From Gemmatimonadaceae bacterium (GTDB lineage Bacteria; Gemmatimonadota; Gemmatimonadetes; Gemmatimonadales; Gemmatimonadaceae), in contig JADYYN010000264.1 of NCBI GenBank assembly GCA_020853635.1, positions 1-45,520 of the forward strand: a stretch of DNA of 45,520 bases, in the 5' to 3' direction. Both the position numbers and the translations under genes were made by a program. Position 1 is the first letter of the stretch. Every line of letters starts with the position of its first letter. Positions 28,052 to 45,520 of this stretch are shown here, one piece after another. The notes beneath the pieces were generated by a model. The model searched no databases. It was not told where the DNA came from and saw nothing but the letters and a program-made list of their open reading frames with translations.

Positions 28052-29376
28052 CAGGCGGTGGCCCAGGTGGTGAGATGCGGCACGAGCCGCTCGAGCTTCA
28101 CGCCGCGCGATGCCTTGAGCAGGATCGCCGCGTCGGGCTTGAGCAGCGGCTCGAGCCGCGGCCAAAGATCGTCCACGTCATCGGCGACCAGCACGCGAGG
28201 GTCGTTGGGAGCGAGTGCGCGCAGCGCCGGGCCGAATTCCCCGATGCCACACACCAGATCGTGCCCCGCCGCCAGCGCCGCCTCGGCGACCTCGCGATGG
28301 GCCCGTTCCGCGTGCACTCCCAGTTCCCGCATCGTGCCGAGCACCGCTACCCGCTGACGGCCACCGCCCACGTCGCGCAACAGCGCGATCGCCGCGCGTG
28401 CCGAGCCGGGGTTCGCGTTGTACGCGTCGTTGATCAACACGGCCTTGCCCAGCGGCGCCACGTTGGAACGCATGGGCGGCATCGGCATCCCGCCGATCCC
28501 CGCCGCGGCATCCTCGGCGCTGACACCGAACTCCTTGCTCACGGAGAGGGCGAGCGCGGCGTTGCGCAGGTTGTGCGCCCCGCGCAGCGGCACCTCCACC
28601 GTGGCGCCTTCCCACTCGATCCAGCCGCGGCCGTCGGCGTGCAGGCCATGCTTGGTGGGCAAGTGCGCGGCCACCACACGCGTGGCGCGCCGTGTCGCTT
28701 CGTCCACCACCGCCTGCTCGCTGCCCGGCACCACCGCCACGTTCACTTCATCACAGAGCGACATCTCCTCGGCCATCACACCTTCGATGGAGCCCAAGCC
28801 CTCGAGATGTTCCTCCTGCACCGTTGTCACCACCACAAGATCAGGCGCGATGATGTCGCGCAGCAGCGCGATCTCGCCCGGCTCGTTGGTGCCTGCCTCG
28901 ATCACCGCCACATCGGTGCCTTCGCCCAGCGCGAGCAGCGTGAGCGGCACGCCGATGCGATTGTTCAAGTTGCCCGTGGTCGCGTGCACCTCGTAGCGCG
29001 AGCCGAGCACGGCGCGCAGCAGTTCCTTGGTGCTGGTCTTGCCGTTGGAGCCGCCTACGGCGATCACCGGCCGTCCCCACGCCTTTCGACGGTAGTGGCC
29101 GAGCGCGCCCAATGCGACCAGCGTATCGGGGACTTCGAACACCGGCACGCCCAGCGTAGCCGCACGGCGCGCATCGTTCACCACGAGCGCGGCCGCCCCG
29201 GCCTTCACGGCGTCGGCGAGGAAGTCATGTGCGTCGAACCGTTCACCTTTGAGCGCCACGAAGCACTCGCCCGGCTTGATGGCGCGGGTGTCGGTGGTGA
29301 TGCCACTGATGAGCCGCTGGTCGGACGGGCCGCCGCCGAGTGCTTGTGCGATCCGTTCCAACGTCCAGAAACTCAT
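28051..29376 (-). CDS. murF: UDP-MurNAc-tripeptide--D-alanyl-D-alanine ligase MurF
   Basis: This 441-residue ligase adds D-Ala-D-Ala. The ATP loop is AVGGSNGKTSTKELLRAVL; the family IEAGTNEPGEIALL and INDAYNANPGSARAAI motifs are present. Length is normal. The ATG overlaps the murE stop by 4 nt. No ddl gene is seen in the cluster, so its D-Ala-D-Ala substrate must be made elsewhere in the genome. Confidence 0.97.
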   Translation of the reverse strand: MSFWTLERIAQALGGGPSDQRLISGITTDTRAIKPGECFVALKGERFDAHDFLADAVKAGAAALVVNDARRAATLGVPVFEVPDTLVALGALGHYRRKAWGRPVIAVGGSNGKTSTKELLRAVLGSRYEVHATTGNLNNRIGVPLTLLALGEGTDVAVIEAGTNEPGEIALLRDIIAPDLVVVTTVQEEHLEGLGSIEGVMAEEMSLCDEVNVAVVPGSEQAVVDEATRRATRVVAAHLPTKHGLHADGRGWIEWEGATVEVPLRGAHNLRNAALALSVSKEFGVSAEDAAAGIGGMPMPPMRSNVAPLGKAVLINDAYNANPGSARAAIALLRDVGGGRQRVAVLGTMRELGVHAERAHREVAEAALAAGHDLVCGIGEFGPALRALAPNDPRVLVADDVDDLWPRLEPLLKPDAAILLKASRGVKLERLVPHLTTWATA

Positions 29377-30953
29377 GCCGGCTCCGCGCGCGAGGCGCTC
29401 TGTTTGAGGATGTCGTGCACGATCGCCTTCTCGTCGAACGGGAACGACGTCGTGCCGCGGATCTGATACGTCTCGTGGCCTTTGCCGGCGAGCACGACGA
29501 CGTCCTGTGCAGGGTCCGCGAGTGCGATGGCGTGTGCGATGGCCGCGCGACGGTCCTCGATGCGCACGTAGCTCCCGTGCGGCAACGGCGCGACGATGTC
29601 GTCGAGGATGGCGTTGGGATCTTCGGTGCGCGGATTGTCGCTGGTCACCACGATACGATCGCCATACTTGAGCGCGGCCAGCGCCATGAGCGGACGCTTG
29701 CCCTTGTCGCGGTCGCCACCGCAGCCGAACAGCACGATGAGTCGGCCCGGTGTGAACGGCCGGAGCGCGAGGCAGGCGCGTTCGAGTGCGTCGGGCGTGT
29801 GCGCGTAGTCGCGCAGCACCGTGGGGTGCTCGTGCAGCACTTCGAGTCGGCCCGGCACCTGCGGCAGCGTCGCGAGGCGCGCAGCCACATCGGCCACTGG
29901 CACACCGAGCGCCAGCGCCGCACCGGCCGCGCCGAGCGCGTTACTCACATTGAAGTCGCCGATCAGCGGCAGCCGCACCGCTGCCGAACCGCCCAGTGTC
30001 TCCAGAGTCCACTCGCTGCCACGCGGCGTGAAGCGCACGTCGCGGGCGCGGACGTCCGCGTCGACGGGGGCGGCACCCGGTGGGGCAGCGCCTGCCGTCG
30101 CGTCTGCAGCGAACCGGACACGCCGCGGCGCCTTGGGCAGCGCGTCCCACGCCGGATCCTCGGCGTTCACCACCGCTGTGCCCTGCTCCGTCAGCAACCC
30201 GACCAAGAGCGCCTTCGCCTCAAGGTACGCGTCCATCGTCTTGTGATAATCCAGATGGTCGCGCGTGAGGTTGGTGAACACCGCCGCGTCGAACCGCACG
30301 CCGAGCACGCGCTGCTGATGTAGCGCATGCGACGAGACCTCCATGGCCACCGTCCCGACGCCGTGCTGACGCAACTCGAACAACCCCCGCTGCAGCTCGA
30401 TCGGCCCCGGCGTGGTGAGCCCGCTGCCGCCGGGCAACATCGCGCCTTCACTGCCGATCAACACGCCCAACGTGCCGATGCTCGCCGCCGGACTCTCCGC
30501 GGAGTCGAGCAGATGCCGCACGATGCCCACGGTGGTGGTCTTGCCGTTGGTGCCGGTCACACCCACGAAGCGCATGGCCTTGGCCGGCTCGCCGTAGAAC
30601 GCCGCCGCCGCGATCGCCGACGCGGCGCGGCTCTCCCGCACCACGAGCGCGGGCAGCGACGCCGCGGACGCGTCTTCGACGATCGCGCACACCGCGCCCG
30701 CCGTCGCCACGTCGGCGAGATATGCATGCCCATCGCGCTCGCTCCCGCGCACCGCCACAAAACACGTGCGCTGGCCGATCTTCCGACTGTCGTCGGTGAT
30801 CGCGAGGACGCCATCAGGCAGCGTGCCCTGCACGCTGAGCAACTGGCCCGCGCGCTCCAACGCCGCGCGGATCGTCTCGAGAGGGACGAGGCGACTCATG
30901 TCTGCTGAACCGTCCGGGTGGGGGGCGTTGTTCCGAACGTCACCCGGCGTCAC
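29373..30953 (-). CDS. murE: UDP-MurNAc-tripeptide synthetase MurE (meso-DAP type)
   Basis: This 526-residue ligase adds the third amino acid. The ATP loop is VGVTGTNGKTTTVGIV. The VTSDNPRTEDPN segment contains the DNPR signature of meso-diaminopimelate-adding enzymes, as opposed to lysine-adding ones. I use the GTG at 30953 because it overlaps the ftsI stop by 4 nt, as at most neighbouring junctions. An ATG at 30899 (18 codons later) is an alternative with a cleaner N-terminus. Confidence 0.95.
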   Translation of the reverse strand: MTPGDVRNNAPHPDGSADMSRLVPLETIRAALERAGQLLSVQGTLPDGVLAITDDSRKIGQRTCFVAVRGSERDGHAYLADVATAGAVCAIVEDASAASLPALVVRESRAASAIAAAAFYGEPAKAMRFVGVTGTNGKTTTVGIVRHLLDSAESPAASIGTLGVLIGSEGAMLPGGSGLTTPGPIELQRGLFELRQHGVGTVAMEVSSHALHQQRVLGVRFDAAVFTNLTRDHLDYHKTMDAYLEAKALLVGLLTEQGTAVVNAEDPAWDALPKAPRRVRFAADATAGAAPPGAAPVDADVRARDVRFTPRGSEWTLETLGGSAAVRLPLIGDFNVSNALGAAGAALALGVPVADVAARLATLPQVPGRLEVLHEHPTVLRDYAHTPDALERACLALRPFTPGRLIVLFGCGGDRDKGKRPLMALAALKYGDRIVVTSDNPRTEDPNAILDDIVAPLPHGSYVRIEDRRAAIAHAIALADPAQDVVVLAGKGHETYQIRGTTSFPFDEKAIVHDILKQSASRAEPA

Positions 30954-32941
30954 CGCTGCGCAACGAGCCGGATGGTCGTGCCGGCCGGCATCACGGTGCC
31001 GGCGGCGGGCAAGGTCTCGGCATGATCGCCGCGCACGATCGACACACGGAAGCCCGCGCGATGCAGTTCACGAACCGCGTTGCGCGTGGTCAACCCACGC
31101 ACACTCGGCACCGGACGCGCGCTCACCACGCGCTTCACCACCGGGGTGTCCACACCGAGCTCCACCACGAACGGTGCGCCGGGCTGCTCGGCGTCGCGGG
31201 CCTTCTCCTCGGCCGCGGCCACCGCGCGGGTGGTCTCCTCGCGCAGCGCGGCGGCCGCGGTGTCGTTTGCCGCCACTCGCACCGGCGGGCCCGCGAGCTT
31301 GGACGGATCGAGCGCCGCATCACGCGCGGCGATCGCCGCCTCGAGCACGGCCTTCGTCACCGGCGCGGCGATCTTGCCGCCGTAGTACGCGCCACTCGGT
31401 GCATCAAGCTTGACCAAGATCACCAGCTGCGGATCCTCGGCCGGGAACAGGCCCACGAAGCTGGCGGTGTACGACCCGTCCTCATAACCCTTGCCATCGT
31501 CGCGCATGCGACGCGCGGTGCCCGACTTGCCCGCGAGCTGGTAGCTCGCCAGGTCCGCCGAGGTCGCCGTCCCGTCGGTCACGACTTCGCGCAGCAGGCC
31601 GCGCATGGTCTTGGCCGTCTTCTCCGACATGATGCGACGCACCACGCGACGCTTGGCCTTCCAGCTCACATCGCCGTCGGCGTCGCGTAGTTCCTTCACC
31701 AGCGTGGGCTCGAGCAACTCCCCGCCGTTGGCGATCGCGCCGTAGGCGAGTGCGAGCTGCAGCGGCGTGACCGCGAGCTCGTAACCCATAGAGAGCGACG
31801 CCGGCGACTGCTTGGACCACGTCGACGGCGGACGCAGGCGTCCGTTGGACTCCGACGGATACGGCGCACCGGTGGTCATGCCGAAGCCCGCGTCGCGCAG
31901 CGCTTCGTACTGCTCGCCCGGCGTGAGTCGCTCGGCGAACTGCACGATGCCGATGTTCGACGAGTAGCGAATGACCTCGGCGAAGCTCATCTGCTTCGCC
32001 TTATGGATGTCGTGGATCACGCGGCCGTGGAGCTTGTACGTGCCGTCGTAGGTGTTCACGGTCTCATCGAGCTCCACGCGCTCCTTCTCGATCAGCGCAG
32101 CGGCGATGAACGGCTTGAGCGTCGACCCCGGCTCGTACGGCTCCGTGAGCGCCGTCGCACCCGAGGCATCGGCGCGCGCACGACGGCTCGCCAGCGCGCG
32201 GATCTCGCCGGTGTGCGGGTCGAGCACGACGATGTCGCCACCGCGCGCATCCAGCGTCTGGATCGCGTCGGTGAGCGCGCGCTCCGCGATGTCCTGCAGA
32301 CCCTGATGCAGCGTGAGCACTGCGGTGCGGCCCGGCGAGGGCGGCACGTAACCTTCTTCGGGTGAGGTGAGCACACCCAACCGCCCGGTCTTGGCCAAGC
32401 GCGTCCTCCCCGGCACACCGCGCAGCACGCCGTCCAGCGCGACTTCCACGCCACCCACCGCCTTCCCGTCACGGTCCACCGTGCCGAGCAGACGACGCAG
32501 GCCGTCGGTGGACGGCGGCACGCGTTCGAGCACGGGCCGCGGATGCACACCGCGCATCTTCAGGATGTCATCGACATCCGTGGAGAGGAATCGACCGGGC
32601 AGCTCCACCCATTTGCGTTTGCGGTCGATGGACCGCTGCACGAACTCGTTCGTCACCCCCACGCGCCGCAACGCAGCGGCGAGTTCGCGCGGCTGCTTCA
32701 CCTCGGTGGGCGCGATGTCGAGGCGAACCAGCGAACGGCTCTCCACGAGCACGGTGCCGGCGGCGTCGAGGATCGCGCCGCGTGCAGCCGGGATCTCGCG
32801 TTCCACCATCTGCTGCGTGGTCGCGCGCGCGCGCCAACGGTCGGCCTGGCCCACCTGGACCCAGGCGGCACGACCGACCAACGCGACGGCGAAAAGAAGG
32901 AAGGCGCCGTGGACCAACCCGACGCGACTGACGCGGATCAC
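30950..32941 (-). CDS. ftsI: Septal transpeptidase FtsI (PBP3-like) with C-terminal PASTA domain
   Basis: This 663-residue class B penicillin-binding protein crosslinks septal peptidoglycan. It has one N-terminal helix (LLFAVALVGRAAWV), a dimerisation domain, and a transpeptidase domain with the SxxK motif EPGSTLKPF, SxN in YSSNIG and KSG in LAGKSGTARRM. The last 60 residues (VPSVRGLTTRNAVREL and on) form one PASTA domain, which binds muropeptides or beta-lactams in other proteins. The GTG start overlaps ftsL by 4 nt. Confidence 0.95.
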   Translation of the reverse strand: MIRVSRVGLVHGAFLLFAVALVGRAAWVQVGQADRWRARATTQQMVEREIPAARGAILDAAGTVLVESRSLVRLDIAPTEVKQPRELAAALRRVGVTNEFVQRSIDRKRKWVELPGRFLSTDVDDILKMRGVHPRPVLERVPPSTDGLRRLLGTVDRDGKAVGGVEVALDGVLRGVPGRTRLAKTGRLGVLTSPEEGYVPPSPGRTAVLTLHQGLQDIAERALTDAIQTLDARGGDIVVLDPHTGEIRALASRRARADASGATALTEPYEPGSTLKPFIAAALIEKERVELDETVNTYDGTYKLHGRVIHDIHKAKQMSFAEVIRYSSNIGIVQFAERLTPGEQYEALRDAGFGMTTGAPYPSESNGRLRPPSTWSKQSPASLSMGYELAVTPLQLALAYGAIANGGELLEPTLVKELRDADGDVSWKAKRRVVRRIMSEKTAKTMRGLLREVVTDGTATSADLASYQLAGKSGTARRMRDDGKGYEDGSYTASFVGLFPAEDPQLVILVKLDAPSGAYYGGKIAAPVTKAVLEAAIAARDAALDPSKLAGPPVRVAANDTAAAALREETTRAVAAAEEKARDAEQPGAPFVVELGVDTPVVKRVVSARPVPSVRGLTTRNAVRELHRAGFRVSIVRGDHAETLPAAGTVMPAGTTIRLVAQR

Positions 32942-33228
32942 TGCTTGGGAGCTTCTCGGTTGGGACGTGGCAGACGGATGACGAGCGACTCAGGCGGCAC
33001 GCGCATGCCGAGTCGTTCCTCGGCGGTGCGCGCTAACCGAGCGCGGCTCGCGGCATCACGGATCGCCCCTTCGAGGGCGGCCTGCTGTGCATCGAGTGCG
33101 GCCCGGCGTTCACGGAGCTTGCTGAGTTCGCGCGCCTGCGCTTGCCCGGTGCTCCGCCTCCCTATGACGCCTGTGGCCACCACGACGAAACCTAGGAACA
33201 CGAGCAGGGCGATCGACCGCGGACGCAT
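32938..33228 (-). CDS. ftsL: Cell division protein FtsL-like
   Basis: This 96-residue bitopic protein has an N-terminal helix (RSIALLVFLGFVVVATGVIG) followed by a leucine- and alanine-rich coiled-coil segment (RELSKLRERRAALDAQQAAL). The position between rsmH and ftsI is diagnostic, since sequence conservation of FtsL is low. The ATG lies 2 nt after the rsmH stop. Confidence 0.85.
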   Translation of the reverse strand: MRPRSIALLVFLGFVVVATGVIGRRSTGQAQARELSKLRERRAALDAQQAALEGAIRDAASRARLARTAEERLGMRVPPESLVIRLPRPNREAPKQ

Positions 33229-33230
33229 GC

Positions 33231-34247
33231 TCAGATGCCCTCGTGATCGCGACGCAGCGCGCCGCGTCGGCCACCCGCCCGCTCGTCGGTTCCACCCGCC
33301 TTCCGCCACACCCGCAAATGTGCACTCCGCGCCCGAGGATTCGTCGCCGTCTCGCTCTCCGACGCGGTGATCGGCTTGCGCGTCACGAGCGTGCCCAACG
33401 CCACGCCACCACAGGTGCACATGGGCTGCCGCGGCGGGCAGATGCACTCGGTGCTCCACTCGCGGAACAGTTGCTTCACCAGTCGGTCTTCGCCCGAATG
33501 GTAGGCGATCACTGCCAGTACCCCACCGGGCACGAGCCGTTCGCGCAACGTCACCAGCCCGCGGGCGAGGCCGTCGAGTTCGTCGTTCACCGCGATGCGC
33601 ACCGCCTGGAACAGCCGCGCGAACTCCCCCGGCCCGCTGCGACTGCCGAGCACCGCGCGGATGGCCCCCACCAGGTCGTCGGCGGTCGCGAAGGGTTTGC
33701 GCTCGCGGCGGTGCACGATCTCGCGCGCCATGCGCCGCGCCTTGGGTTCGTCGCCGAACTCCTTGAACGTGCGCTCCAGTTCGCGCTCCTCAGCCGTGTT
33801 GAGGTAGCCGGCGGCGTCGAGCTCCTGCGTGGGGTCCATGCGCATGTCGAGTGCGACGCCGGGCCGGAACGAGAATCCGCGCGCGTCGGCATCGAGTTGG
33901 TGCGATGACACGCCCAGGTCGAGCAGGATGCCATCGAACGTGCGCCCGTCGAGGGCCGCGATCTCGTCGATCGCGTCATGATTGCCTGCCACCGCCTCGA
34001 ACGTGCCGCGCTCCTCGAACCCGCGCAGCCGTTCTCTCGCCACCGCCCGCGCCGACTCGTCGCGGTCCACGCCCACCACGTGATGGCCGCGTTCGAGCAA
34101 TGCAGCGCTGTGTCCACCGCCGCCCAAGGTGCCGTCGAGCACCCGCGGCGCATCGGCGAGCACACCGCACACCTCGTGCACGAGCACAGGCGCGTGCCAG
34201 GCGATGGCGAAGGTCTCGGAGTTGTCGGAGCGCTCGGGAGTGGTCAC
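33231..34247 (-). CDS. rsmH: 16S rRNA (cytosine1402-N4)-methyltransferase RsmH
   Basis: This 338-residue SAM enzyme (former MraW) methylates C1402 of 16S rRNA. The SAM motif DGTLGGGGHSAALLERG and LLDLGVSSHQLDADARGFSF are typical. The Cys-rich CICPPRQPMCTCG occurs in several relatives. VIAYHSGEDRLVKQLF corresponds to the conserved FHSLEDR, with Leu replaced by Gly. Start codon GTG. It heads the dcw operon; mraZ is absent. Confidence 0.96.
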   Translation of the reverse strand: MTTPERSDNSETFAIAWHAPVLVHEVCGVLADAPRVLDGTLGGGGHSAALLERGHHVVGVDRDESARAVARERLRGFEERGTFEAVAGNHDAIDEIAALDGRTFDGILLDLGVSSHQLDADARGFSFRPGVALDMRMDPTQELDAAGYLNTAEERELERTFKEFGDEPKARRMAREIVHRRERKPFATADDLVGAIRAVLGSRSGPGEFARLFQAVRIAVNDELDGLARGLVTLRERLVPGGVLAVIAYHSGEDRLVKQLFREWSTECICPPRQPMCTCGGVALGTLVTRKPITASESETATNPRARSAHLRVWRKAGGTDERAGGRRGALRRDHEGI

Positions 34248-36519: not shown

Positions 36520-37572
36520 TTAATCCGCCCCGACTTGCGGTCCGCCCGACTCCACGGGGCCACGCGAACCGGGGGCCGCCGCCGCCTCTCCAAGCAAAGC
36601 GGCCAGCGCACTCGCACGTTCCCGCGCCTCCTGCGCCGCCTCGGCCGCCCGCATGCGGTCCAGTCGCGCCTGCAACTCGCGCCGTTTGCGCCACCACAGC
36701 GGACCCAGCAACACCACCAGCACCACGGCGATCAGCGAGAGGTCCGCCCCGACGGCCAGCAGGCCGTACTGCGCCCGGACGCTCGACTTGAACCGCTGCT
36801 CGAAGTCCGCCTCGGTGAGCCCGTGCGCCGCACGAAGCGCGCGGCCGAACGTCCCCGTCTCCTTCCAGTGCCGGAACAACAGCACCAACGGGCGCTCGGG
36901 ATCCAACGACACCAGCTCCGCCACCGCCCGGTGGGCCAGCGCGTAGGTGCGGTCCGCGGTGGCCGCACCGGCGTAGAAGCCCGAGTCCAGACCGGCCAGC
37001 GTCGGCACCCCGCGCCACACCAGCCCCACGCTCGTCTCGATCACCTGCCCGCGATCCCACTCCCCGGCCACGTACGACGCGTACCCCTCGTCGAACCAGC
37101 GCGGCACCGGCCCCATGGCCTCGGCCAGCGCCAGGTGCGCGATCTCGTGGCGCAGCGTGCGTAGCGGGTCGCGGTTGGCGGATTCGTCCCGCCCCCGCAT
37201 CACGATCAGCCGCTCGCGAGGGAACGCGAACGCGGCGCCCCACTCGGGGGCGCCATCACCCACCCAGTCGCGGAAGGTCTCCTCGTCGGGCGCCAGCGCG
37301 ATGCGCACGGTGTCGCGCAGCACCGGCAGTCCCGCGAAATCGTCGCCGCGCCACGCCGCCGCGAGGAACGACTGCGCGAGCCGCGCTTCGTCCGGGTAGT
37401 GCAGGATCTGGAATCGCCCGCGCGAGACCACCGCGGCGCCGGGCGCGAGGCTGTCGAGGAACGCGAACGTGCGCGGCGAATCAGGCTGCGTCTGCGTCTG
37501 CGCCTGCGCGGGTTGCCACACTAGGGCGAGGGCGCACGCGATCACGCGCGCGCGCGCCGCCCACCGCGTCAC
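36520..37572 (-). CDS. Exported gluzincin-like (peptidase MA family) metallopeptidase
   Basis: This 350-residue protein has a signal peptide (IACALALVWQPAQA). Residues about 140-180 hold a zinc-peptidase motif, LRHEIAHLAL (HExxH), with WFDEGYASYV downstream as the third ligand helix, as in gluzincins of the peptidase MA type. A C-terminal membrane helix (LSLIAVVLVVLLGPLWW) and a coiled coil of charged residues follow. I chose the GTG at 37572 because it overlaps the TPR stop by 4 nt; a longer frame from 37674 would overlap by about 100 nt. It is the last gene of the chemosensory operon; its substrate is unknown. Confidence 0.75.
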   Translation of the reverse strand: MTRWAARARVIACALALVWQPAQAQTQTQPDSPRTFAFLDSLAPGAAVVSRGRFQILHYPDEARLAQSFLAAAWRGDDFAGLPVLRDTVRIALAPDEETFRDWVGDGAPEWGAAFAFPRERLIVMRGRDESANRDPLRTLRHEIAHLALAEAMGPVPRWFDEGYASYVAGEWDRGQVIETSVGLVWRGVPTLAGLDSGFYAGAATADRTYALAHRAVAELVSLDPERPLVLLFRHWKETGTFGRALRAAHGLTEADFEQRFKSSVRAQYGLLAVGADLSLIAVVLVVLLGPLWWRKRRELQARLDRMRAAEAAQEARERASALAALLGEAAAAPGSRGPVESGGPQVGAD

Positions 37573-38435
37573 ACGTCGCGCGGCGGCTCTCCCCCACTCT
37601 CCACGAGCGCCAGCATCGACGCGCATCGTTTGCCCCACGGGTTGAACTTGTTCGCCGCGAACCCGTCCTTCCACGCCTGCAGCGCGTGCTCGCGCTCGTC
37701 GTTGAACCAGTGCGCACGCCCCAGCTCGTAGTACGCCTCGATCAAGTTGGGCCCGAGCCCCAGCGTCTTGCGGAAGAACGTCTGCGCGTCCTCGTACATC
37801 TCCCGCTCAAGATACACGAGCCCGAGGTAGAAGTGCGCGTACAACACCGCCTTGCGGTCGTTGTCCAGACGGATCGCCTTGGACAAATGCTCGATCGCCT
37901 CGCCGAAGATCCGCTTCTTCAGGCAGATGTAGCCGACGTTGATGCGCGCCAACGAGTTGGCCGGCTCGCGCACCAGCACCTTCTGGAAGTTCATCAGCGC
38001 GTCGTCGTATTTCTCCTGTAACATCTGCGCCCAGCCGAGCAGCGCCTCGCTCTGCGGATCGCCCGGCGAGAGTTCGATCGCCTTCAGCAGCGCCTGCTCC
38101 GCGCCCTCGTGGTCGCCCAGCGACAAACGCGACCACCCCTTCTCGATGAACGTCGAGGCGCCGATGTGATCGGCATGCACCACCGGCTTCTCGGCGTTGA
38201 ACTGCGGGGCCGCGCTGCCGTTCCCGCCGCCCTGCTGCGACTTCCACTTCTCCACCAGCTGCTTGATGTCGTCGCGCAGCGTGCTCAGCTCGGCGATCTG
38301 TGCCTCCACCGACTTGAAGAGCGTCACGATCTCGGTCTTCACCACCGGGCGCTCGTCCTCGGAGAGCCCGGCGTCGAGTCGACCGTCGATCGCCGTGTAC
38401 TTCGCCTTGTACGAGGCCAGCGTCTCGTCAGCCAT
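37569..38435 (-). CDS. TPR protein with N-terminal coiled coil in chemosensory operon
   Basis: This 288-residue protein begins with a helical segment (VKTEIVTLFKSVEAQIAELS, then DDIKQLVEKW). TPR repeats follow from about residue 90 (GWSRLSLGDHEGAEQALLKA, NVGYICLKKRIFGEAIEHLS, AHFYLGLVYLEREMYEDAQT). No signal peptide is seen, so it should be cytoplasmic. The ATG overlaps the end of the second cheW gene by 8 nt. It probably acts as a scaffold. Confidence 0.75.
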   Translation of the reverse strand: MADETLASYKAKYTAIDGRLDAGLSEDERPVVKTEIVTLFKSVEAQIAELSTLRDDIKQLVEKWKSQQGGGNGSAAPQFNAEKPVVHADHIGASTFIEKGWSRLSLGDHEGAEQALLKAIELSPGDPQSEALLGWAQMLQEKYDDALMNFQKVLVREPANSLARINVGYICLKKRIFGEAIEHLSKAIRLDNDRKAVLYAHFYLGLVYLEREMYEDAQTFFRKTLGLGPNLIEAYYELGRAHWFNDEREHALQAWKDGFAANKFNPWGKRCASMLALVESGGEPPRDV

Positions 38436-38940
38436 GCGCCGCTCCCTGCGCGATCGCGCGCGCCATCTCCAGCCGTTCGGTCGACGTGAGCAACTTCGCC
38501 GTTGCGAGCACCACCAACAACGCATCCCCTTCGCGCACGATCCCCTCCAAGTAGTCCTTGGCCAGCCCCCGATAGATCGGCGGCGGCGCTTCGATCGCCG
38601 TGGCATCGACCGCACGCACCGCGTGCACCGCGTCCACGATCACACCCACCCGTCCATCCGGTCCTTCGATCACCAACGTCCGCGCGCCCGCCGGCACCGG
38701 CTCCAGGTCGAATCCCAAGCGCTCCCGCAGGTCGATCACCGGCACCACCGTGCCCGCATGATCGATCACGCCGCGCAGCCAGCCGGCGGCGTTGGGCACC
38801 GTGCGAGGCGGCGTGTACCGCAGCACGCGTTCCACCACGAAGATGTCCGCCGCGAACCGCTCACCGGCGACCTCGAAGGTCACCAGCTGCCGTTTCCGCT
38901 CCGTCTTCGTCGCACTCGCTGTCGCCTCTGCTCCGGTCAT
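38428..38940 (-). CDS. cheW: CheW-like coupling protein (second copy)
   Basis: This 170-residue protein has a CheW fold: RQLVTFEVAGERFAADIFVV, WLRGVIDHAGTVVPVIDLRE and the later VGVIVDAVHAVRAVDA. CheW proteins join chemoreceptors to CheA. The ATG overlaps the previous cheW stop by 4 nt. The presence of two CheW genes but no CheA in view is notable. Confidence 0.85.
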   Translation of the reverse strand: MTGAEATASATKTERKRQLVTFEVAGERFAADIFVVERVLRYTPPRTVPNAAGWLRGVIDHAGTVVPVIDLRERLGFDLEPVPAGARTLVIEGPDGRVGVIVDAVHAVRAVDATAIEAPPPIYRGLAKDYLEGIVREGDALLVVLATAKLLTSTERLEMARAIAQGAAHG

Positions 38941-39395
38941 CGCATCTCCGCGGTCAGCTTTGCCACTACCTGCGCACGAATCCCTGCCATCTCGACAACC
39001 CCGGCGAGGCGACCACCCAGGTCCAACACGCCCGCCAGTCCCGTGGTCGCCGTGCCCGTCTGCGGCACCGATCTCCACTGCTCAGGCTCGACGCGTACGA
39101 GGTCCTCCACGTCATCCACCAGCATGCCGAATCGCGTGCCCTCGGCTTCGAGGACGAGCAGTGTCCCACCCGCGGCGTTCCGGGGCACCCCGAGCAGCGC
39201 CGCACCGTCGAGCACGGTGAGCAAGCGCTCCCGGATCGCACACTGGCCGATCACCCCGGCCGGAAGCAAGGGCAGCGACGTGATGATGGGCGTGTCGAGC
39301 ACTTCGAGCACGTCGCCGATCGGCAGCGCGAAGGACTCACCGCCCAGGCGCACGAGCAGCAGCGACGTGCCAGCCACCGAGGTCGCGGTGCTCAT
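38937..39395 (-). CDS. cheW: CheW-like coupling protein (first copy)
   Basis: This 152-residue CheW domain protein contains LLLVRLGGESFALPIGDVLE, LPAGVIGQCAIRERLLTVLD and FGMLVDDVEDLVRVEP. It overlaps the cheB stop by 4 nt (ATGA). It is only about as long as a single CheW domain. Its sequence differs clearly from the other copy, so the two may have different partners. Confidence 0.85.
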   Translation of the reverse strand: MSTATSVAGTSLLLVRLGGESFALPIGDVLEVLDTPIITSLPLLPAGVIGQCAIRERLLTVLDGAALLGVPRNAAGGTLLVLEAEGTRFGMLVDDVEDLVRVEPEQWRSVPQTGTATTGLAGVLDLGGRLAGVVEMAGIRAQVVAKLTAEMR

Positions 39396-40480
39396 GTTCG
39401 GTACCCCGCGCGATCGTCGAGCAGCATGGTCGCGACTTTCGCGATCTGCTGCACCGGCACCTCGAAGTCCGCCCCCGCCTCCAGCAACGCCTGCTGTGGC
39501 ATGCCGTAGATCGACGACGTCTCGCGGTCCTGCACCACGGCACCGGCGCCGGCCGCGCGCAGGGCCTTGAGCCCAGAGGCCCCGTCGCGCCCCATGCCGG
39601 TGAGCACCACACCCACACTGCGCGCGCCGAAGTACTTCGCCACCGACATGAACAGGTAGTCCGCCGCCGGTCGCACGCCGTGCAGCGCGGCCCCGGTGTC
39701 GAGGGCGATGCTCAGTCCGTCGGGTCCGCGCGCCACGGTCATGTGATATCCACCGGGCGCGAGATACACGCGCCCCGGATACAACACGTCGCCGTGGGCG
39801 GCCTCCGCCACGGTGAGATCCGACAACTGGTCGAGCCGCCGCGCGAGCCCCGACGTGAAGCCGGGCGGCATGTGCTGCACGATGAGGATCGCCGCGTCGA
39901 GTGTCGCCGGGAACATCGGCACCACGTCGGCCAGCGCCCGCGGCCCGCCGGTGGAGCTCGCGATCGCCACGGCCATGGTCGCGCGCTTGGGCGGCAGCTT
40001 GGGCGGCGCCGGCGGACGCAACTGCGGCCGCGCGAGCATGCGCATGCCCTGCAGGTTCATCATCACCGACGCGCGCAGTGCGTCCTCGATCCGCCGACGG
40101 CTGCCTTCCCAATCGGCGCGCGAGTTGCCTGCCGGTTTGCCGACGAAGTCCACCGCGCCCAACTCCAGCGCGCGGATGGTCAGGTCCACGGAGCCGCGCG
40201 TCGTCGCACCGCTGATCATCACCACCGGCCGCGGCAACTCGCTCATGATGTAGCCGAGCACGGCGAGGCCGTCCAAACCGGGCATCTCGATGTCGAGCGT
40301 GACTATGTCGGGGTCGAGCTCATGCACGAGGCGCAGCCCTTCTTCGCCGTCGCGTGCGATCGCCACCACCTCGAAGTCGCCGATGCTCTCGATCAAGTCG
40401 CGCAACACGGCCGCGAGCAGCGCATTGTCGTCGACGATCAACACGCGATGCAGCTCACTGCGCTGAGGGCTAGAGGACAC
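39392..40480 (-). CDS. cheB: Chemotaxis response regulator methylesterase CheB
   Basis: This 362-residue protein has an N-terminal receiver domain (phospho-Asp in DIVTLDIEMPGLDGLAVLGY) and a C-terminal methylesterase/glutamine deamidase domain. The catalytic triad is visible: Ser in ASSTGGPRAL, His in VQHMPPGFTSG and Asp in GMGRDGASGL. I chose the GTG at 40480 because a GGAGG lies 5 nt upstream; a GTG at 40492 also reads in frame. It overlaps cheD by 11 nt. Confidence 0.92.
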   Translation of the reverse strand: MSSSPQRSELHRVLIVDDNALLAAVLRDLIESIGDFEVVAIARDGEEGLRLVHELDPDIVTLDIEMPGLDGLAVLGYIMSELPRPVVMISGATTRGSVDLTIRALELGAVDFVGKPAGNSRADWEGSRRRIEDALRASVMMNLQGMRMLARPQLRPPAPPKLPPKRATMAVAIASSTGGPRALADVVPMFPATLDAAILIVQHMPPGFTSGLARRLDQLSDLTVAEAAHGDVLYPGRVYLAPGGYHMTVARGPDGLSIALDTGAALHGVRPAADYLFMSVAKYFGARSVGVVLTGMGRDGASGLKALRAAGAGAVVQDRETSSIYGMPQQALLEAGADFEVPVQQIAKVATMLLDDRAGYRT

Positions 40481-40949
40481 GTTCGCCTCCACGCACCGAG
40501 CGCACGTGCAGCGCCCCGGTGTTCACATCGAGCGTCACGCTGCGGCCGGCCACGCCACCGGTCTCCTCGCCCACCAGCGCGATACCTGCCTTGGCCAGCG
40601 ACGCCTTGGCTGCCGCCACATTGCGCGCGCCCACCTGGCCACCGGTGCCCGTGAGCATCGCGCCGAACAGCGAGGCGCCGCCGGCGATCTTGGCCACCAG
40701 TTCACCGCGCGCACCCATCTGCCGCATCGCGTCCACCAACAGCGGCACCGCCGTCGTCGCGAAGCGCGCCGGCTGATCGACCTCGCGCGAGAGACTCGGG
40801 TCGGGCAGCAGGATATGCGCGAGCCCGGCCACGCGGAACTTCCCGTCGTGCATCGCGCTCGCCACGCAACTGCCCAACCCGATCGTCACGAGACGACCGC
40901 TGCCACGCGCCACGGCGTAGTGCGCGATGCGGACGTGCTGGTCGGTCAC
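40470..40949 (-). CDS. cheD: Chemoreceptor glutamine deamidase CheD
   Basis: This 159-residue protein has the CheD signature VTIGLGSCVASAMHD with the catalytic Cys, and GLAHILLPDP with the catalytic His. A Lys/Gly-rich motif KIAGGASLFGAM also fits. It deamidates receptor glutamines, and in some bacteria binds CheC. The GTG start overlaps the cheR stop by 4 nt. Confidence 0.9.
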   Translation of the reverse strand: MTDQHVRIAHYAVARGSGRLVTIGLGSCVASAMHDGKFRVAGLAHILLPDPSLSREVDQPARFATTAVPLLVDAMRQMGARGELVAKIAGGASLFGAMLTGTGGQVGARNVAAAKASLAKAGIALVGEETGGVAGRSVTLDVNTGALHVRSVRGGERVL

Positions 40950-41770
40950 GCGGCACGACGGAAGATGCGCTGACGCGCATCCACCGGCTCGAACAGGGTG
41001 CGCAGCGGGCCCAACAGCGTCTCCACCTTCCCCAGCACCAGAAACCCGCCCGGCGCGAGCGCGTCATGGAACTTCCGCATGAGCGGCTCCTGACTCTCGC
41101 GGCCGAAGTAGATGATCACGTTGCGACAGGTGATCAACTGCAGCCCCTGCGCCGGCGGCGGGTCGCTCAACAGATCGCGCCGCTCCACATCCACGAGCGC
41201 CTTGATCTCCGGCACGGCGGCATGCGGCGCCTCAGCCGAGAAATAGCGCGTCTTGAGCGCCGCAGGCATCTCGCTGAACGCTTCGGCTGCATAGGCCCCG
41301 CGCTTGGCCGACTCCAGCGACGCCCGATCGATATCGCTGCCGATGATCCGCACGCGCTTGAGCTTCGCCTCGTTCAGCGTGCGCATCGCATGCGCATGGA
41401 ACAGTGACGCCAGCGTGTACAGCTCCTCGCCCGACGAACAACCCGCGCTCCACACGGTCACCGCCGGGGTCTCCAGCGCGAACAGTGCGGGCACCACGGT
41501 CTCTGCCACCAGATCCCACACACTGGCGTCGCGGTACAGCTTGGTGACGTTGATGGTCAGCGTGTCGATCAGCGCATCGAACTCCGCCGGGTCGCGGTCG
41601 AGCAGCAACGAATACGCGGCAAAGTCCGGCGTGCCGCGCGCGCGCATGCGCACCGCGATGCGACGGCGCAGACAGCCATCCTTGTAGTTCGCACACGAGA
41701 ACCCGCGGACCGCCGCGATCTTCTGGGTCAGGGCACGGAACCCGGGCTCGTCCACCGCGCCCGCGTTCAT
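40946..41770 (-). CDS. cheR: Chemoreceptor methyltransferase CheR
   Basis: This 274-residue SAM-dependent enzyme methylates receptor glutamates. The N-terminal helical domain (TQKIAAVRGFSCANYKDGCL, RRIAVRMRARG) is followed by the SAM motif VWSAGCSSGEELYTLAS and ITCRNVIIYFGRESQEPLM. The ATG at 41770 overlaps the DUF4388 gene stop by 4 nt. No TPR extension is fused to it. Confidence 0.93.
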   Translation of the reverse strand: MNAGAVDEPGFRALTQKIAAVRGFSCANYKDGCLRRRIAVRMRARGTPDFAAYSLLLDRDPAEFDALIDTLTINVTKLYRDASVWDLVAETVVPALFALETPAVTVWSAGCSSGEELYTLASLFHAHAMRTLNEAKLKRVRIIGSDIDRASLESAKRGAYAAEAFSEMPAALKTRYFSAEAPHAAVPEIKALVDVERRDLLSDPPPAQGLQLITCRNVIIYFGRESQEPLMRKFHDALAPGGFLVLGKVETLLGPLRTLFEPVDARQRIFRRAA

Positions 41771-43386
41771 CGGCCGCCGCGCGCCGCCGTGAGCTGTTCG
41801 CGCGCCTCGCGATGGTTGGGATCGAGCACCAACGCGCGCTCCCACGCATTCATTGCTTCCGTCACGTCCCCGAAGCCCGCGCGCAGCGTCCCGATCCGCG
41901 CCCACACCTCAGGGCCCAGCGTCTCGTGATGCTTGACCGCGCGCATGTACTCCTCGAGCGCCTGGTCGGGCAGCGCACGGAGCATCATGATGTCGCCGCG
42001 GTTGCGATGCAGCGGCGCCAGCCCCGGGTCCTCGGTGAGCCCACGATCCAACGCCGCGAGCGCCTCGTCCTCGCGATCCGCCGACGCCAACGCCACGGCA
42101 AGGTTGTTGTGCAACGCGGCTGCGTGCGGATGCGCGGCCGCACCTTCGCTCAACATCGCGATCGCCTTGTCGCGCTGCCCGCTCAGTCCCGCCGCCAACG
42201 CCGCCGAGTGGAACCACACGGCCGACGGCGCACGCTGGCCGAACAGCGGGCGCGCATGCATGAAGTGGCCGTCGGCGTCCTCGAACCGCCCTTCGCGCAA
42301 CGCGAGGATGCCTAGCGACGTGTGCACGCGCGGTTCTTCCTCACCACCACGCACCAACGCGTCCTCGAGCGCCTGCCGTGCCTCGGTGAGTCGGCCCAAC
42401 CGTTCGAACGCCAGCGCCAGGTTATGGAACACCGACGCCTTCGCCCCACGCTGCCGCGACGCGGCCTCGAGATGCGTGAGCGCTTCGCTCCACTTCCCCA
42501 GGCGCAGATGCGCCAATCCGAGATAGAACCGTGCGCCCAGGTCATCGGGTCGCAGCTCGGCCACGCGACGGAACTCGCGCACGGCTTCATCGAGCATGCC
42601 GGTCTTGTAGAACGCCACGCCGAGATTGCGATGCTCCTCGATCTTCACTTCGGCGGCGACTTCCTCGGCGGGCTTGGTTTTGCCCACGCGATGCAGGAAG
42701 CCCGCGGTGGCGAGACCGAACAGCGCCTTGCCCACCTCGAACTCGACCAGCCCGGACTCGTCCACCAGTGAGGCCACGTCGCGCCGCCCGTCGATCAGCG
42801 GCAGCAGTGTCTGCTGCTCGAGCGTCAACTGCGCGCCAGTCTCACCCAAGCGCCGGCGATCGACCTCGAACACGATGTCGAAGCTCGGCACCTTCTTCTC
42901 GATCAGCGACCACTCGTCCACGCGCCGCGCGCCTTCGAGCAGCAGCGACTCGGGATTGATCGACACGAGGAAGTCCTGTTCCTCGGGCCGGATGTCCGAC
43001 TCGAAGTTGAACGTGCCCTCGGCCCAGGTGAACAGGTAGTACACGGCCTCTTCGATCTGGATGCGGATCTGCTGGTGCAGGTCCTCACGCGTGATCATCG
43101 CGCGCTCCACCAGCAGTTCACCGAGTCGCTTGGTGCGGCTCTTCGACTGCAGGTCGATCGCCTCGTCGAGCTGCAGCTGCGTGAGCAACTGGCTCTTCAC
43201 GAGGATGTCGCCGAGTCGGTCGCGACGGTTCACGATGGACGCGTACGAGATGCGTCCCTTGTCGAAGTAGATGGAGCCGAAGTTGTTGCGGTGCGTGACC
43301 GACAGACAGCCGCTCTTCTTGCCCATCGAGAGCAACTGCAGCACGTCCGGCAGCGACGCTTCCTTGAGTGAGCCGCGAATGGCCAT
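41767..43386 (-). CDS. DUF4388 (PATAN)-TPR protein
   Basis: This 539-residue cytoplasmic protein starts with the DUF4388/PATAN motif (GSLKEASLPDVLQLLSMGKK, GSIYFDKGRISYASIVNRRD). About residues 60-210 look like a winged-helix-like second module (LGDILVKSQLLTQLQLDEAI). From about 240 come TPR repeats (NLGVAFYKTGMLDEAVREFR, ALTHLEAASRQRGAKASVFH). DUF4388 proteins elsewhere belong to GTPase-linked and response-regulator systems. The ATG shares one base with the stop of the DnaA-like gene (TGATG). Confidence 0.85.
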   Translation of the reverse strand: MAIRGSLKEASLPDVLQLLSMGKKSGCLSVTHRNNFGSIYFDKGRISYASIVNRRDRLGDILVKSQLLTQLQLDEAIDLQSKSRTKRLGELLVERAMITREDLHQQIRIQIEEAVYYLFTWAEGTFNFESDIRPEEQDFLVSINPESLLLEGARRVDEWSLIEKKVPSFDIVFEVDRRRLGETGAQLTLEQQTLLPLIDGRRDVASLVDESGLVEFEVGKALFGLATAGFLHRVGKTKPAEEVAAEVKIEEHRNLGVAFYKTGMLDEAVREFRRVAELRPDDLGARFYLGLAHLRLGKWSEALTHLEAASRQRGAKASVFHNLALAFERLGRLTEARQALEDALVRGGEEEPRVHTSLGILALREGRFEDADGHFMHARPLFGQRAPSAVWFHSAALAAGLSGQRDKAIAMLSEGAAAHPHAAALHNNLAVALASADREDEALAALDRGLTEDPGLAPLHRNRGDIMMLRALPDQALEEYMRAVKHHETLGPEVWARIGTLRAGFGDVTEAMNAWERALVLDPNHREAREQLTAARGGR

Positions 43387-45290
43387 CAGCCGAGCTCCTC
43401 AACCAGGCGTCCACCGATATCCGGCCATTCCCACACCACCCGTTCGCGGTCGAGGAAGGTGCGGTCACCCGCCGCACCTGCCGCCGCCGCGGGCGCCATC
43501 GTCGTCGCCGCGTTGGCCCCGAAGCCCAGCTCCTCGCGCGCGAGCGCGGCGTCGAGCACGCCACCGCGCGCATCGGCCGCAGCCGCCAGGCGATTCACCA
43601 CGCCGATCAGCTCACGCACACTCTGCACCGGCGGATCACTCACCACATCGAGTAGCTCCGGCATCGCCGGGCGGCCGAGTGCGGTGAGGAAGCGCGCGAC
43701 GAGCTTCTCGCGCAGCGGACGGTCCGGCGGCAGGATCTGCGCCGTCAGGCCGCCCTCGAACCGCGAGCGAAGCCGGTCGGCCAACTCGGGGATCTCGGCC
43801 GGCGAACGGTCGCTCGAGAGCACGATCTGCTTCCCTGCCTCGGCCAGCGCGTTGAACACGAAGAAGAACTCGTCCTGCGTGCGCTCTTTGCCCGCGAGGA
43901 ACTGCACGTCGTCCACGATGAGTGCGCCGGCGGCGCGGTAGCGATTGCGCCAGCGCTCCACCGTGCCTTCCTGGATGGCCGTGATGAGCTCATCCACCAG
44001 CGTCTGCGCATGCACACAGGCCACATGAAGGGTCCCGCCCGACGCCTCGGCGATCGCATTGCCGATCGCGTGCACGAGGTGCGTCTTGCCCACGCCGCTC
44101 GAGCCGGTGACCAGCAGCGGGTTGTAGCGCACGCCCGGCGCCGCGATCACCGCGTCGGCGGCGTGCACCGCGAGCTGGTTGGCCGCACCTACCTCGAAGC
44201 CGTCGCGCGAGAACGCGCGATTGGGGCCACCGGGCGGCATCTCGCCGGCGAGAGCCTTCTCCACGAAGTCTTCGGCGTCGGCCAAGCGCTCGGGATCGCG
44301 GAACAACTCGTGGCCGCCGAGGGCCTCATCGACCGCCGTGGCCTGCCGCTCCAACGCGCGCAGATGCTCCACCGCCTCCACGTACACCGCGACCAGCGCC
44401 GGCACGTCGGGATCACTCGGCAGCCCGAGCGCGCGCTCCAGCACCGCCGTCTTGTAGCCCTCGCCCTGCCAGTACGCGATGGTCTCTCGCAGCCGCACCT
44501 GCCACGACTCCACGTGCTGTTGCACCACCGACGTCACATCGCTCAGGAAACTCAGGAACTCGCCGGTGGACACGCCGGTCAGGCCACCATCCGTCGCGGC
44601 CTTGTGCGCGCCGGAGTTGCGGTCGCCACCGAGTGTCTGGCGTGCGATCCACTGATTGAGCGCGCCCTGCAACTCGCGCACCGACTGCACGCCGCGCTGC
44701 GCCAGCGTGTCGAGTGTGCGGTCCGGCACCACCACGCCGCGCTCCGCACACGACGCGCGTAGGATCGCCACGCGCGCCTCGAACTCCGGCGGGCTCACGT
44801 CCACCACGAGACCGCCCGAGAGGCGCGAGATCAAGCGCTCGTCAACGTCGGAGATCTCCGACGGCGGACGGTCACTCGTGCACACGATCTGTCGCCCCGC
44901 TTCCTGCATCGCCGAGAAGAGGCGCAGCAACTCCGCCTGCATCTCTCGGCGGCCGGCGAGGAACTGGATGTCGTCGAGCAGCAGCAGGTCCACATGCGAG
45001 AGCCGCCCGCCGAACGCCTGCGACTCACCGGCCGACACGGCCGCGTGGAACTGTTCCGAGAACTCGTCGAGCGTGAGCGCGAGCACTTCGCCCTCGGGCT
45101 GTAGTTCGGCGAGTCGATGCCCGGTGGACGTCAGCAGGTGCGTCTTGCCCAGCCCCGATGGTCCATAAATGAAGAGCGGGTTGTACGCCGTGCCCGGCGC
45201 CTCGGCCACCGCACGCGCGGCCGCGGCGGCGAGGCGGTTGCCCGCGCCCACCACCAATCGGTCGAACGTCAGTCGCGGATCGAGCCGCAT
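43386..45290 (-). CDS. Tandem DnaA-type AAA+ ATPase in Mgl/chemosensory operon
   Basis: This 634-residue protein contains two DnaA/Hda-like AAA+ modules. Module 1 (about 5-230): RLTFDRLVVGAGNRLA, Walker A YGPSGLGKTHLL, Walker B LLLLDDIQFLAG, sensor I CTSDRPPSEI, arginine-finger region LISRLSGGL. Module 2 (about 360-600): Walker A TGSSGVGKTHLV, Walker B LIVDDVQFLAG, sensor SSDRSPAEI, and LRSRFEGGL. Both look catalytically complete. There is no N-terminal domain I and no C-terminal helix-turn-helix domain IV, so it is not a replication initiator. A helical linker of about 130 residues joins the modules. It lies between the mglA-like gene and DUF4388-TPR with gaps of 1 nt and a 1-nt overlap. Confidence 0.85.
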   Translation of the reverse strand: MRLDPRLTFDRLVVGAGNRLAAAAARAVAEAPGTAYNPLFIYGPSGLGKTHLLTSTGHRLAELQPEGEVLALTLDEFSEQFHAAVSAGESQAFGGRLSHVDLLLLDDIQFLAGRREMQAELLRLFSAMQEAGRQIVCTSDRPPSEISDVDERLISRLSGGLVVDVSPPEFEARVAILRASCAERGVVVPDRTLDTLAQRGVQSVRELQGALNQWIARQTLGGDRNSGAHKAATDGGLTGVSTGEFLSFLSDVTSVVQQHVESWQVRLRETIAYWQGEGYKTAVLERALGLPSDPDVPALVAVYVEAVEHLRALERQATAVDEALGGHELFRDPERLADAEDFVEKALAGEMPPGGPNRAFSRDGFEVGAANQLAVHAADAVIAAPGVRYNPLLVTGSSGVGKTHLVHAIGNAIAEASGGTLHVACVHAQTLVDELITAIQEGTVERWRNRYRAAGALIVDDVQFLAGKERTQDEFFFVFNALAEAGKQIVLSSDRSPAEIPELADRLRSRFEGGLTAQILPPDRPLREKLVARFLTALGRPAMPELLDVVSDPPVQSVRELIGVVNRLAAAADARGGVLDAALAREELGFGANAATTMAPAAAAGAAGDRTFLDRERVVWEWPDIGGRLVEELG

Positions 45291-45291
45291 G

Positions 45292-45520
45292 TCAGCGCCC
45301 CGTGGTCCCCGTGCTCAACTTGCGGAGCACGAGTTCGGAGATGCCGCGCAGCGTCTCGAAGACACCCGGGCCATGCAGGGCGTCAGCGGAGAACGAAGGC
45401 ACGTTGCGGAAGTTGAGGGCTTCATCGAGATCGGTGACCGGCGTGATGATGTCCGCCGGGAGATCCTGCTTGTTGTACTGGATGACGAGCGGGACCGTGC
45501 GCGCGTCCACACCCTGCTCG
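45292..45520 (-). CDS. mglA: MglA-like small Ras-type GTPase, C-terminal part only
   Basis: The frame enters from the right edge and stops at 45292, giving about 75 residues. VPLVIQYNKQDLPAD contains the NKxD guanine-specificity motif of small GTPases. The sequence up to the end, FSADALHGPGVFETLRGISE, matches, from memory, MglA proteins that act as polarity switches in gliding and chemosensory systems. The G1-G3 boxes lie outside the window. It precedes the DnaA-like gene by 1 nt. Confidence 0.75.
   Translation of the reverse strand, partial: EQGVDARTVPLVIQYNKQDLPADIITPVTDLDEALNFRNVPSFSADALHGPGVFETLRGISELVLRKLSTGTTGR

Follow-up and report, generated by a model that had tools for sequence, protein, structure and literature searches.

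A tandem DnaA-type ATPase lacking a detectable DNA-binding domain and its DUF4388-MshEN-TPR partner in signalling gene clusters of Gemmatimonadota

Introduction

ATPases of the DnaA clade are known in replication and transposition. Here we describe a tandem DnaA-type AAA+ protein, named DnaA2, which is encoded in a signalling operon of a Gemmatimonadaceae bacterium (GenBank assembly GCA_020853635.1, contig JADYYN010000264.1, positions 1 to 45,520; this whole stretch of 45,520 nucleotides (nt) is referred to as the window) and appears to represent a replication ATPase reused as a signalling switch. DnaA2 shares the AAA+ domain III with DnaA, but it differs from DnaA in having two such modules, an extra helical domain and a C-terminal tail, in the absence of any detected domain I or IV, in its location in a signalling operon and in forming separate clades. 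Hda, the DnaA regulatory inactivator, is likewise a DnaA-family AAA+ protein without domain IV, and an Hda-like AAA+ protein could in principle lend its arginine finger to another ATP site. Neither the Hda models nor the Hda folds are the best match of DnaA2, and the helicase loaders DnaC/IstB are neither its closest fold nor its closest sequence.

The genes around DnaA2 also invite comparison with described systems. The Myxococcus MglA-SgmX system for polarity and type IV pilus control likewise combines MglA and TPR proteins in a motility context; the portions of its description available to us mention no DnaA-type ATPase, whereas here a partner with a cyclic di-GMP (c-di-GMP) motif and Che genes stand in one cluster. 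The cyanobacterial phototaxis proteins with a PATAN (DUF4388) domain have this domain, a Che-type pathway and type IV pili in common with the present system; in the accessible text, PATAN is paired with a CheY receiver, whereas here it is part of a TPR protein, and the pairing is with a DnaA-type ATPase (PMC5812497). An alpha-helical insertion in PATAN is already in print, judging from the title of a reference cited in the same paper. The c-di-GMP domain MshEN is given in the available part of its description as two 24-residue motifs and a 5-residue spacer, a unit of 53 residues, as in the partner insert described below, with the difference that here the unit is inserted in DUF4388 and is eroded in some members (PMC5013675). 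In the open-licence literature, we found no prior description linking a DnaA-type ATPase to MglA, DUF4388 or motility in Gemmatimonadetes, none that connects DUF4388 with MglA, and no coupling of the PATAN insertion to a DnaA-type ATPase. Papers that turned up for DnaA paralogues in gemmatimonads were judged unrelated by title and opening of the abstract.

Results

DnaA2 comprises 634 amino acids and is encoded on the minus strand (43386..45290), as are all of the window genes of the cluster described below. A profile search detects Bac_DnaA in two stretches of the open reading frame (ORF), which represent two complete DnaA domain-III AAA+ modules. Module 1 (residues 3-222, 44625..45284) has an intact ATP site and changed contact residues for single-stranded DNA (ssDNA), and module 2 (residues 357-598, 43497..44222) is a DnaA domain III with the ssDNA motif and the arginine finger. 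The middle helical domain (residues 243-347, 44250..44564) consists of the helices 244-276, 296-320 and 333-347 in the AlphaFold model, and a sequence search of this domain against the PDB returned nothing credible (best E 0.075). The protein ends with a conserved tail (residues 615-634, RERVVWEWPDIGGRLVEELG, 43389..43448), as identified by the tail pattern and by sequence comparison. The best structural matches are domain III of DnaA, including the nucleotide-bound structures 2hcb and 3r8f and the origin-opening complex 8btg. These matches and the profile search confirm the two DnaA-type modules that an earlier note on this stretch had claimed, and its claim that the N-terminal domain and domain IV are missing agrees with the profile search, in which neither domain I nor domain IV is detectable in the window protein. 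A separate, normal DnaA is encoded on another contig of the same genome, of which the assembly is a draft with a completeness of 83.7%. The model TIGR00362 scores 475 bits on DnaA2 across two stretches, above its equivalog cut-off of 344, and automatic annotation by this model may label the gene as DnaA.

The same architecture is found across the phylum. The helix-turn-helix of domain IV gives a significant match in 0 of 58 family proteins compared with 21 of 21 canonical DnaA proteins, and no helix-turn-helix was found by profile, a find that the earlier note had named as refuting its reading. In a quick tree, each DnaA2 module forms its own clade, and the canonical DnaA of the phylum is separate (SH-aLRT 100). 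When the helical-domain profile was used to search genomes with a completeness of 80 or more, DnaA2 relatives were found in 176 of 298 genomes of the Gemmatimonadota and in 86 of 119 genera; the 176 is a lower bound, as the profile missed the DnaA2-positive genomes G081, G128, G235, G257 and G161. G081, at first counted as negative, carries a one-module DnaA2. Some genomes with a normal DnaA are without DnaA2. The association with signalling genes, which the earlier note had expected to recur, is present in relatives, and what is conserved across the phylum is an ATPase of the DnaA family that has no detectable DNA-binding domain and is encoded in a signalling operon. Of 38 phage and 50 plasmid matches, the 25 and 40 that were listed, respectively, each span fewer than 900 bases and therefore correspond to one module, and no DnaA2 relative was found on viral contigs. 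A single scan of genome contigs, which extended to other phyla and is sensitive to close relatives only, found seven close relatives. One of the seven, with 80% identity, lies on a 3,159-base contig titled Planctomycetota (L007, 711-2606), for which mislabelling, contamination or transfer may be the reason.

The constant neighbour of DnaA2 is a DUF4388 (PATAN)-MshEN-TPR protein of 539 amino acids (41767..43386); its start codon and the DnaA2 stop have one base in common. A pair of MshEN-like c-di-GMP motifs lies inside its DUF4388 domain (residues 57-110, 43057..43218), with a score of 44.7 bits against NCBIfam NF053729 (cut-off 38); the copy at residue 57 fits the loose pattern only, and the copy at residue 87 fits the strict pattern. 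The insert of a relative's partner (L045) matches the Vibrio cholerae MshE structure 5htl with an E-value of 4.1e-7. Neighbours were counted in 63 loci of relatives, after three duplicate records were dropped and with the window itself left out of the count. The DUF4388-TPR gene is next downstream of DnaA2 in 62 of these 63 loci, the exception (L142) being frameshifted, and its distance from the last matched base is at most 300 nt in 57 loci and 306-468 nt in five. DnaA2 and the DUF4388-MshEN-TPR protein look like the unit of selection, plugged into MglA and chemosensory control in most lineages.

In the single lineage in which loss of the ATPase is seen, the insert has been lost with it. The distance from the DUF4388 start to the landmark EEAVY is 110-112 residues in 55 of 66 DnaA2-type loci, namely those read automatically, and in the other 11 the insert is seen by motif or alignment in all except the frameshifted L142. 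In nine of ten DnaA2-less loci, this distance is 58 residues, and L151, the remaining one, is truncated at the end of its contig. Most loci of the two types therefore differ by 53 residues, which equals the size of the MshEN motif pair. The DnaA2-less partner proteins comprise 419-438 amino acids compared with 537 or more in the DnaA2-type loci, and an alignment of three of them reveals that the last TPRs are lost as well. In the partner tree, nine DnaA2-less loci form one clade (100/99). Loss of c-di-GMP signalling was considered as the cause of the co-loss and rejected, since all 13 genomes tested, including four of the DnaA2-less lineage, have GGDEF genes. The paralogue DUF4388b also retains an insert-sized span in five g5 genomes of this lineage, which together with the GGDEF genes indicates that c-di-GMP signalling as a whole is not lost.

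Counter-examples were sought by searching for the partner, at an E-value of 1e-30, in 80 genomes that form part of the helical-domain-negative group. The partner is unmatched in 71 of these genomes, and nine give matches. Four of the nine are the DnaA2-positive genomes G128, G235, G257 and G161, in the last two of which the tail lies before the partner where the contig ends. Of the rest, G186 is cut at the contig end, the match in G151 is the paralogue DUF4388b, G205 and G259 are both DnaA2-less and insert-less, and G153 holds a remnant. Among the 80 profile-negative genomes, none was thus seen to combine an intact, insert-bearing partner with absence of the ATPase, G186 being cut. In G153 (L240, 7559-10025), one large deletion apparently runs from cheY into the DUF4388-TPR gene and has left remnants of the cluster.

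Residue conservation was counted in 41 two-module proteins and 12 one-module forms with the residue numbers of Escherichia coli DnaA, and scored residues other than V211, R245 and R285 were assigned their generally known roles. The roles of these three residues in E. coli DnaA are those stated in the accessible part of PMC12122000. In module 1 of the two-module proteins, the Walker A lysine and the Walker B DD are present in 41/41, the arginine finger in 39/41 and the sensor-2 arginine in 40/41; the ssDNA residue V211 is replaced by histidine in 23/41 and R245 by glutamate in 35/41. Module 2 has isoleucine or valine at position 211 in 39/41, R245 in 37/41 and the arginine finger in 40/41, and its ATP site is less well kept, with K178 in 29/41, D236 in 28/41 and an empty aligned sensor-2 column in 16/41. 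The module-2 ATP site is dead in all ten f5 proteins (K178 replaced by A or G, D236 by G), which retain the finger and R245. The one-module forms have the ATP-site lysine in 12/12 and the finger in 9/12. This division suggests that module 1 may serve as the ATP site and module 2 as the donor of the finger.

The tail follows the motif E-K-x-V-W-x-W-P-x4-R-L-I-E-E. The pattern matches 58 of 60 family proteins, one of these matches (the frameshifted G154) being spurious, compared with 0 of 21 canonical DnaA proteins; of the two proteins missed, G165 has a visible variant and G076 is eroded. The tail persists without module 2 in f6, f9, G054 and G130, and even in ORFs of 204 and 222 amino acids (G177 and G258) in which no AAA module was detected; in G081, the single AAA module runs almost straight into the tail. 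Because it is the most persistent feature of the family, the tail is likely to be a docking peptide. A reading of G154 (L142) as a gene fusion was rejected, as its frames are frameshifted.

From the right end of the window, the minus strand encodes the MglA-like GTPase, DnaA2, the DUF4388-TPR protein, CheR, CheD, CheB, two CheW proteins and a TPR protein. Because the contig ends within its gene, the GTPase is represented by its C-terminal 75 residues (45292..45519); a complete relative at the corresponding position of its locus matches solved MglA at an E-value of 4.5e-72. Profile matches identify the methyltransferase CheR (ORF limits 40946..41905), CheD (40470..40949), CheB (39392..40492), an ORF with CheW as its last part (residues 251-378; 38937..40112), the second CheW (38428..39078) and the TPR protein (37569..38615), which is a conserved cluster member in the loci of relatives as well. 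Further down lies a cell-wall cluster with Pfam matches to mraW, a penicillin-binding protein (ftsI), mur ligases, mraY, ftsW and murG. This mraW-ftsI division and cell-wall cluster adjoins the signalling cluster repeatedly (window 23249-34247, L109, L112, L148 and L213), and ileS-lspA-rluD stands on the other flank wherever a locus extends that far.

The gene order upstream of the window was taken from relatives. The fullest order is CheW-CheY-CheA-CheC-TPR906-DUF4388b-TPR/Robl-Robl-MglB-MglA-DnaA2-DUF4388TPR-CheR-CheD-CheB-CheW-CheW-TPR-peptidase, which lies between ileS-lspA-rluD and mraW in the loci read far enough. The gene mglA is located within 400 nt upstream of DnaA2 in 41 of 58 loci with sufficient room, mostly at 3-60 nt among the 29 for which full flanks were listed. 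Of the other 17 loci, three (L101, L103 and L104) have mglA at 477-1353 nt, and L058 has a divergent MglA (38%) directly upstream of DnaA2. Adjacent mglA is absent in 13 of the 58 loci, which comprise ten f5 loci and L059, L116 and L212. In the ten f5 loci, which have upstream room, DnaA2 and the DUF4388-TPR gene occupy the ileS-rluD locus without adjacent mglA or cheA/R/D/B; the partner reads cleanly in nine of them, and L142 is frameshifted. In L054, L055, L109, L111 and L155, no cheR or cheD lies alongside, and mglA and DnaA2 are retained. In the G081 locus, mglA, che genes, DUF4388b and TPR906 are missing, and the one-module DnaA2 stands with a partner that bears the insert. More generally, loci that retain DnaA2 in the absence of mglA and che genes also retain the insert. 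The opposite case is seen in seven genomes of g5 and g7, which have no DnaA2 and retain the operon-type mglA. The earlier note had described the ATPase as locked with MglA, a DUF4388 protein and adaptation genes; this is borne out for the DUF4388-TPR gene (62/63), whereas it does not extend to MglA in all loci (41/58) or to the che genes, which are lacking in f5 and G081.

Further observations concern the same cluster. A predicted peptidase (PF13485, window 36520-37674) stays beside the DUF4388-TPR gene even in the f5 loci without che or mglA genes. A 906-residue TPR-rich protein (L064, 7984-10704) regularly belongs to the MglA part of the cluster; that it might act like SgmX is only a thought. 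A second MglB-MglA pair lies outside the cluster in L156 (8866-10040; contig C1 of G012, at about 1,008,000), and the genomes tested commonly have a second MglA-type match. A TGA inside mglA was considered as a selenocysteine codon and rejected: in G093, the one case that was read, it is the terminal stop. Contig C93, which would carry the upstream half of the cluster, overlaps the window end with its own end by 85 nt inside mglA (window 45436-45520; L064 13928-14012), with an identity of 84.7%. The two contigs are therefore from different strains or are not neighbours, which suggests that the draft genome mixes related strains.

Discussion

Taking the two modules, the division of residues between them, the missing DNA-binding domain, the tail, the partner and the single co-loss of the insert together, we propose that DnaA2 is an old DnaA paralogue that would have departed from replication and taken on the role of an ATP-dependent assembly switch within signalling. 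Module 1 would bind ATP, and module 2 may lend its arginine finger in trans to a neighbouring module-1 site, such that the ATP state would decide whether chains join via DnaA-type contacts. The C-terminal tail would dock the ATPase on the adjacent DUF4388-TPR protein, and the MshEN insert could make the docking or the assembly dependent on c-di-GMP. In most lineages, the unit would stand between MglA/MglB polarity control and the CheA-CheY pathway, and would probably set where or when type IV pilus motility is active. As a mechanism for DnaA2, the combination of ATP-switched assembly, tail docking and c-di-GMP gating is a working hypothesis, which we would place somewhat short of probable. The fuller reading is more doubtful, though possible: here, the partner would read c-di-GMP and gate the assembly of a tandem DnaA-type machine, in which one module supplies the ATP site and the other the arginine finger and a nucleic-acid-type contact, and this assembly would set MglA/Che-controlled motility phylum-wide.

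Several observations weigh against this proposal. The AlphaFold model of DnaA2 has a pTM of 0.49, and the relative placement of the modules in it is not confident. Module 2 is missing in f6, f9 and a few other members, and a two-module mechanism is accordingly not general. Canonical DnaA is itself variable at R245, which makes this residue on its own a poor indicator of ssDNA binding. In the window, the first motif copy has glutamine where the pattern calls for G/A/S and agrees with the looser pattern only. In 65 DnaA2-type loci, no motif copy fits the published relaxed pattern, as coded here, in 14, one copy fits in 27 and both fit in 24; judged from these motifs, c-di-GMP binding by the partner is predicted not to be universal (14/65 without a fitting motif). 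Since the DnaA2-less loci form one clade, the co-loss counts as one event. Type IV pili were rejected as a discriminator of the presence and absence of DnaA2, as PilT-family ATPases are found in 37 of 37 genomes.

Some of the same evidence can be read differently. In line with the scaffold or polymer role that the earlier note had inferred, an ATP-stabilised helical filament of DnaA2 may position MglA and the chemosensory proteins, with hydrolysis serving only for disassembly. DnaA of the kind seen in the best structural matches (domain III, including 2hcb, 3r8f and 8btg) forms helical assemblies, and the conservation of both arginine fingers and of box VII also fits a filament; however, forms with one module or none have survived, and the ATPase is also kept where no mglA or che genes are adjacent, which renders this explanation rather unlikely. 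The proximity of mglA, which is no more than 400 nt upstream of DnaA2 in 41/58 loci, would be expected if DnaA2 acted mainly and directly on the GTPase, as an effector, a helper of a GTPase-activating protein or an anchor, with the DUF4388-TPR protein as an accessory. This is improbable in view of the loci that have DnaA2 without adjacent mglA (ten f5 loci, L059, L116 and L212) and of the seven DnaA2-less g5 and g7 genomes that keep the operon-type mglA.

A role in replication has also been weighed, in which a DnaA2 module would contact canonical DnaA through AAA+ interfaces in an Hda-like manner and couple the c-di-GMP or motility state to initiation. Module 2 does retain residues of the initiator-specific motif type (I/V211 in 39/41, R245 in 37/41) and the finger (40/41), and in the window, as in several relatives, the mraW-ftsI division cluster lies alongside. 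The neighbours are nevertheless signalling genes, no DNA-binding domain is detected, module 1 has glutamate at the R245 position in 35/41, and some genomes have a normal DnaA without DnaA2; we consider such a regulator quite improbable. That the gene is a mere second copy of DnaA or a decaying duplicate, as annotation would have it from the TIGR00362 score (475 bits over two stretches, cut-off 344), has next to no likelihood, being already contradicted by the domain-IV result (0/58) and by the tree, in which the DnaA2 modules form their own clades apart from the DnaA of the phylum; strong conservation and synteny across families argue against it as well.

The assembly switch that we prefer is open to a clear genetic test through the ATPase, the tail and the MshEN insert. 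If it is true, the assembly mechanism of DnaA would be reusable as a general switch, with a phylum-wide branch that lacks the DNA-binding domain and carries the ATPase in doubled form acting in motility signalling.

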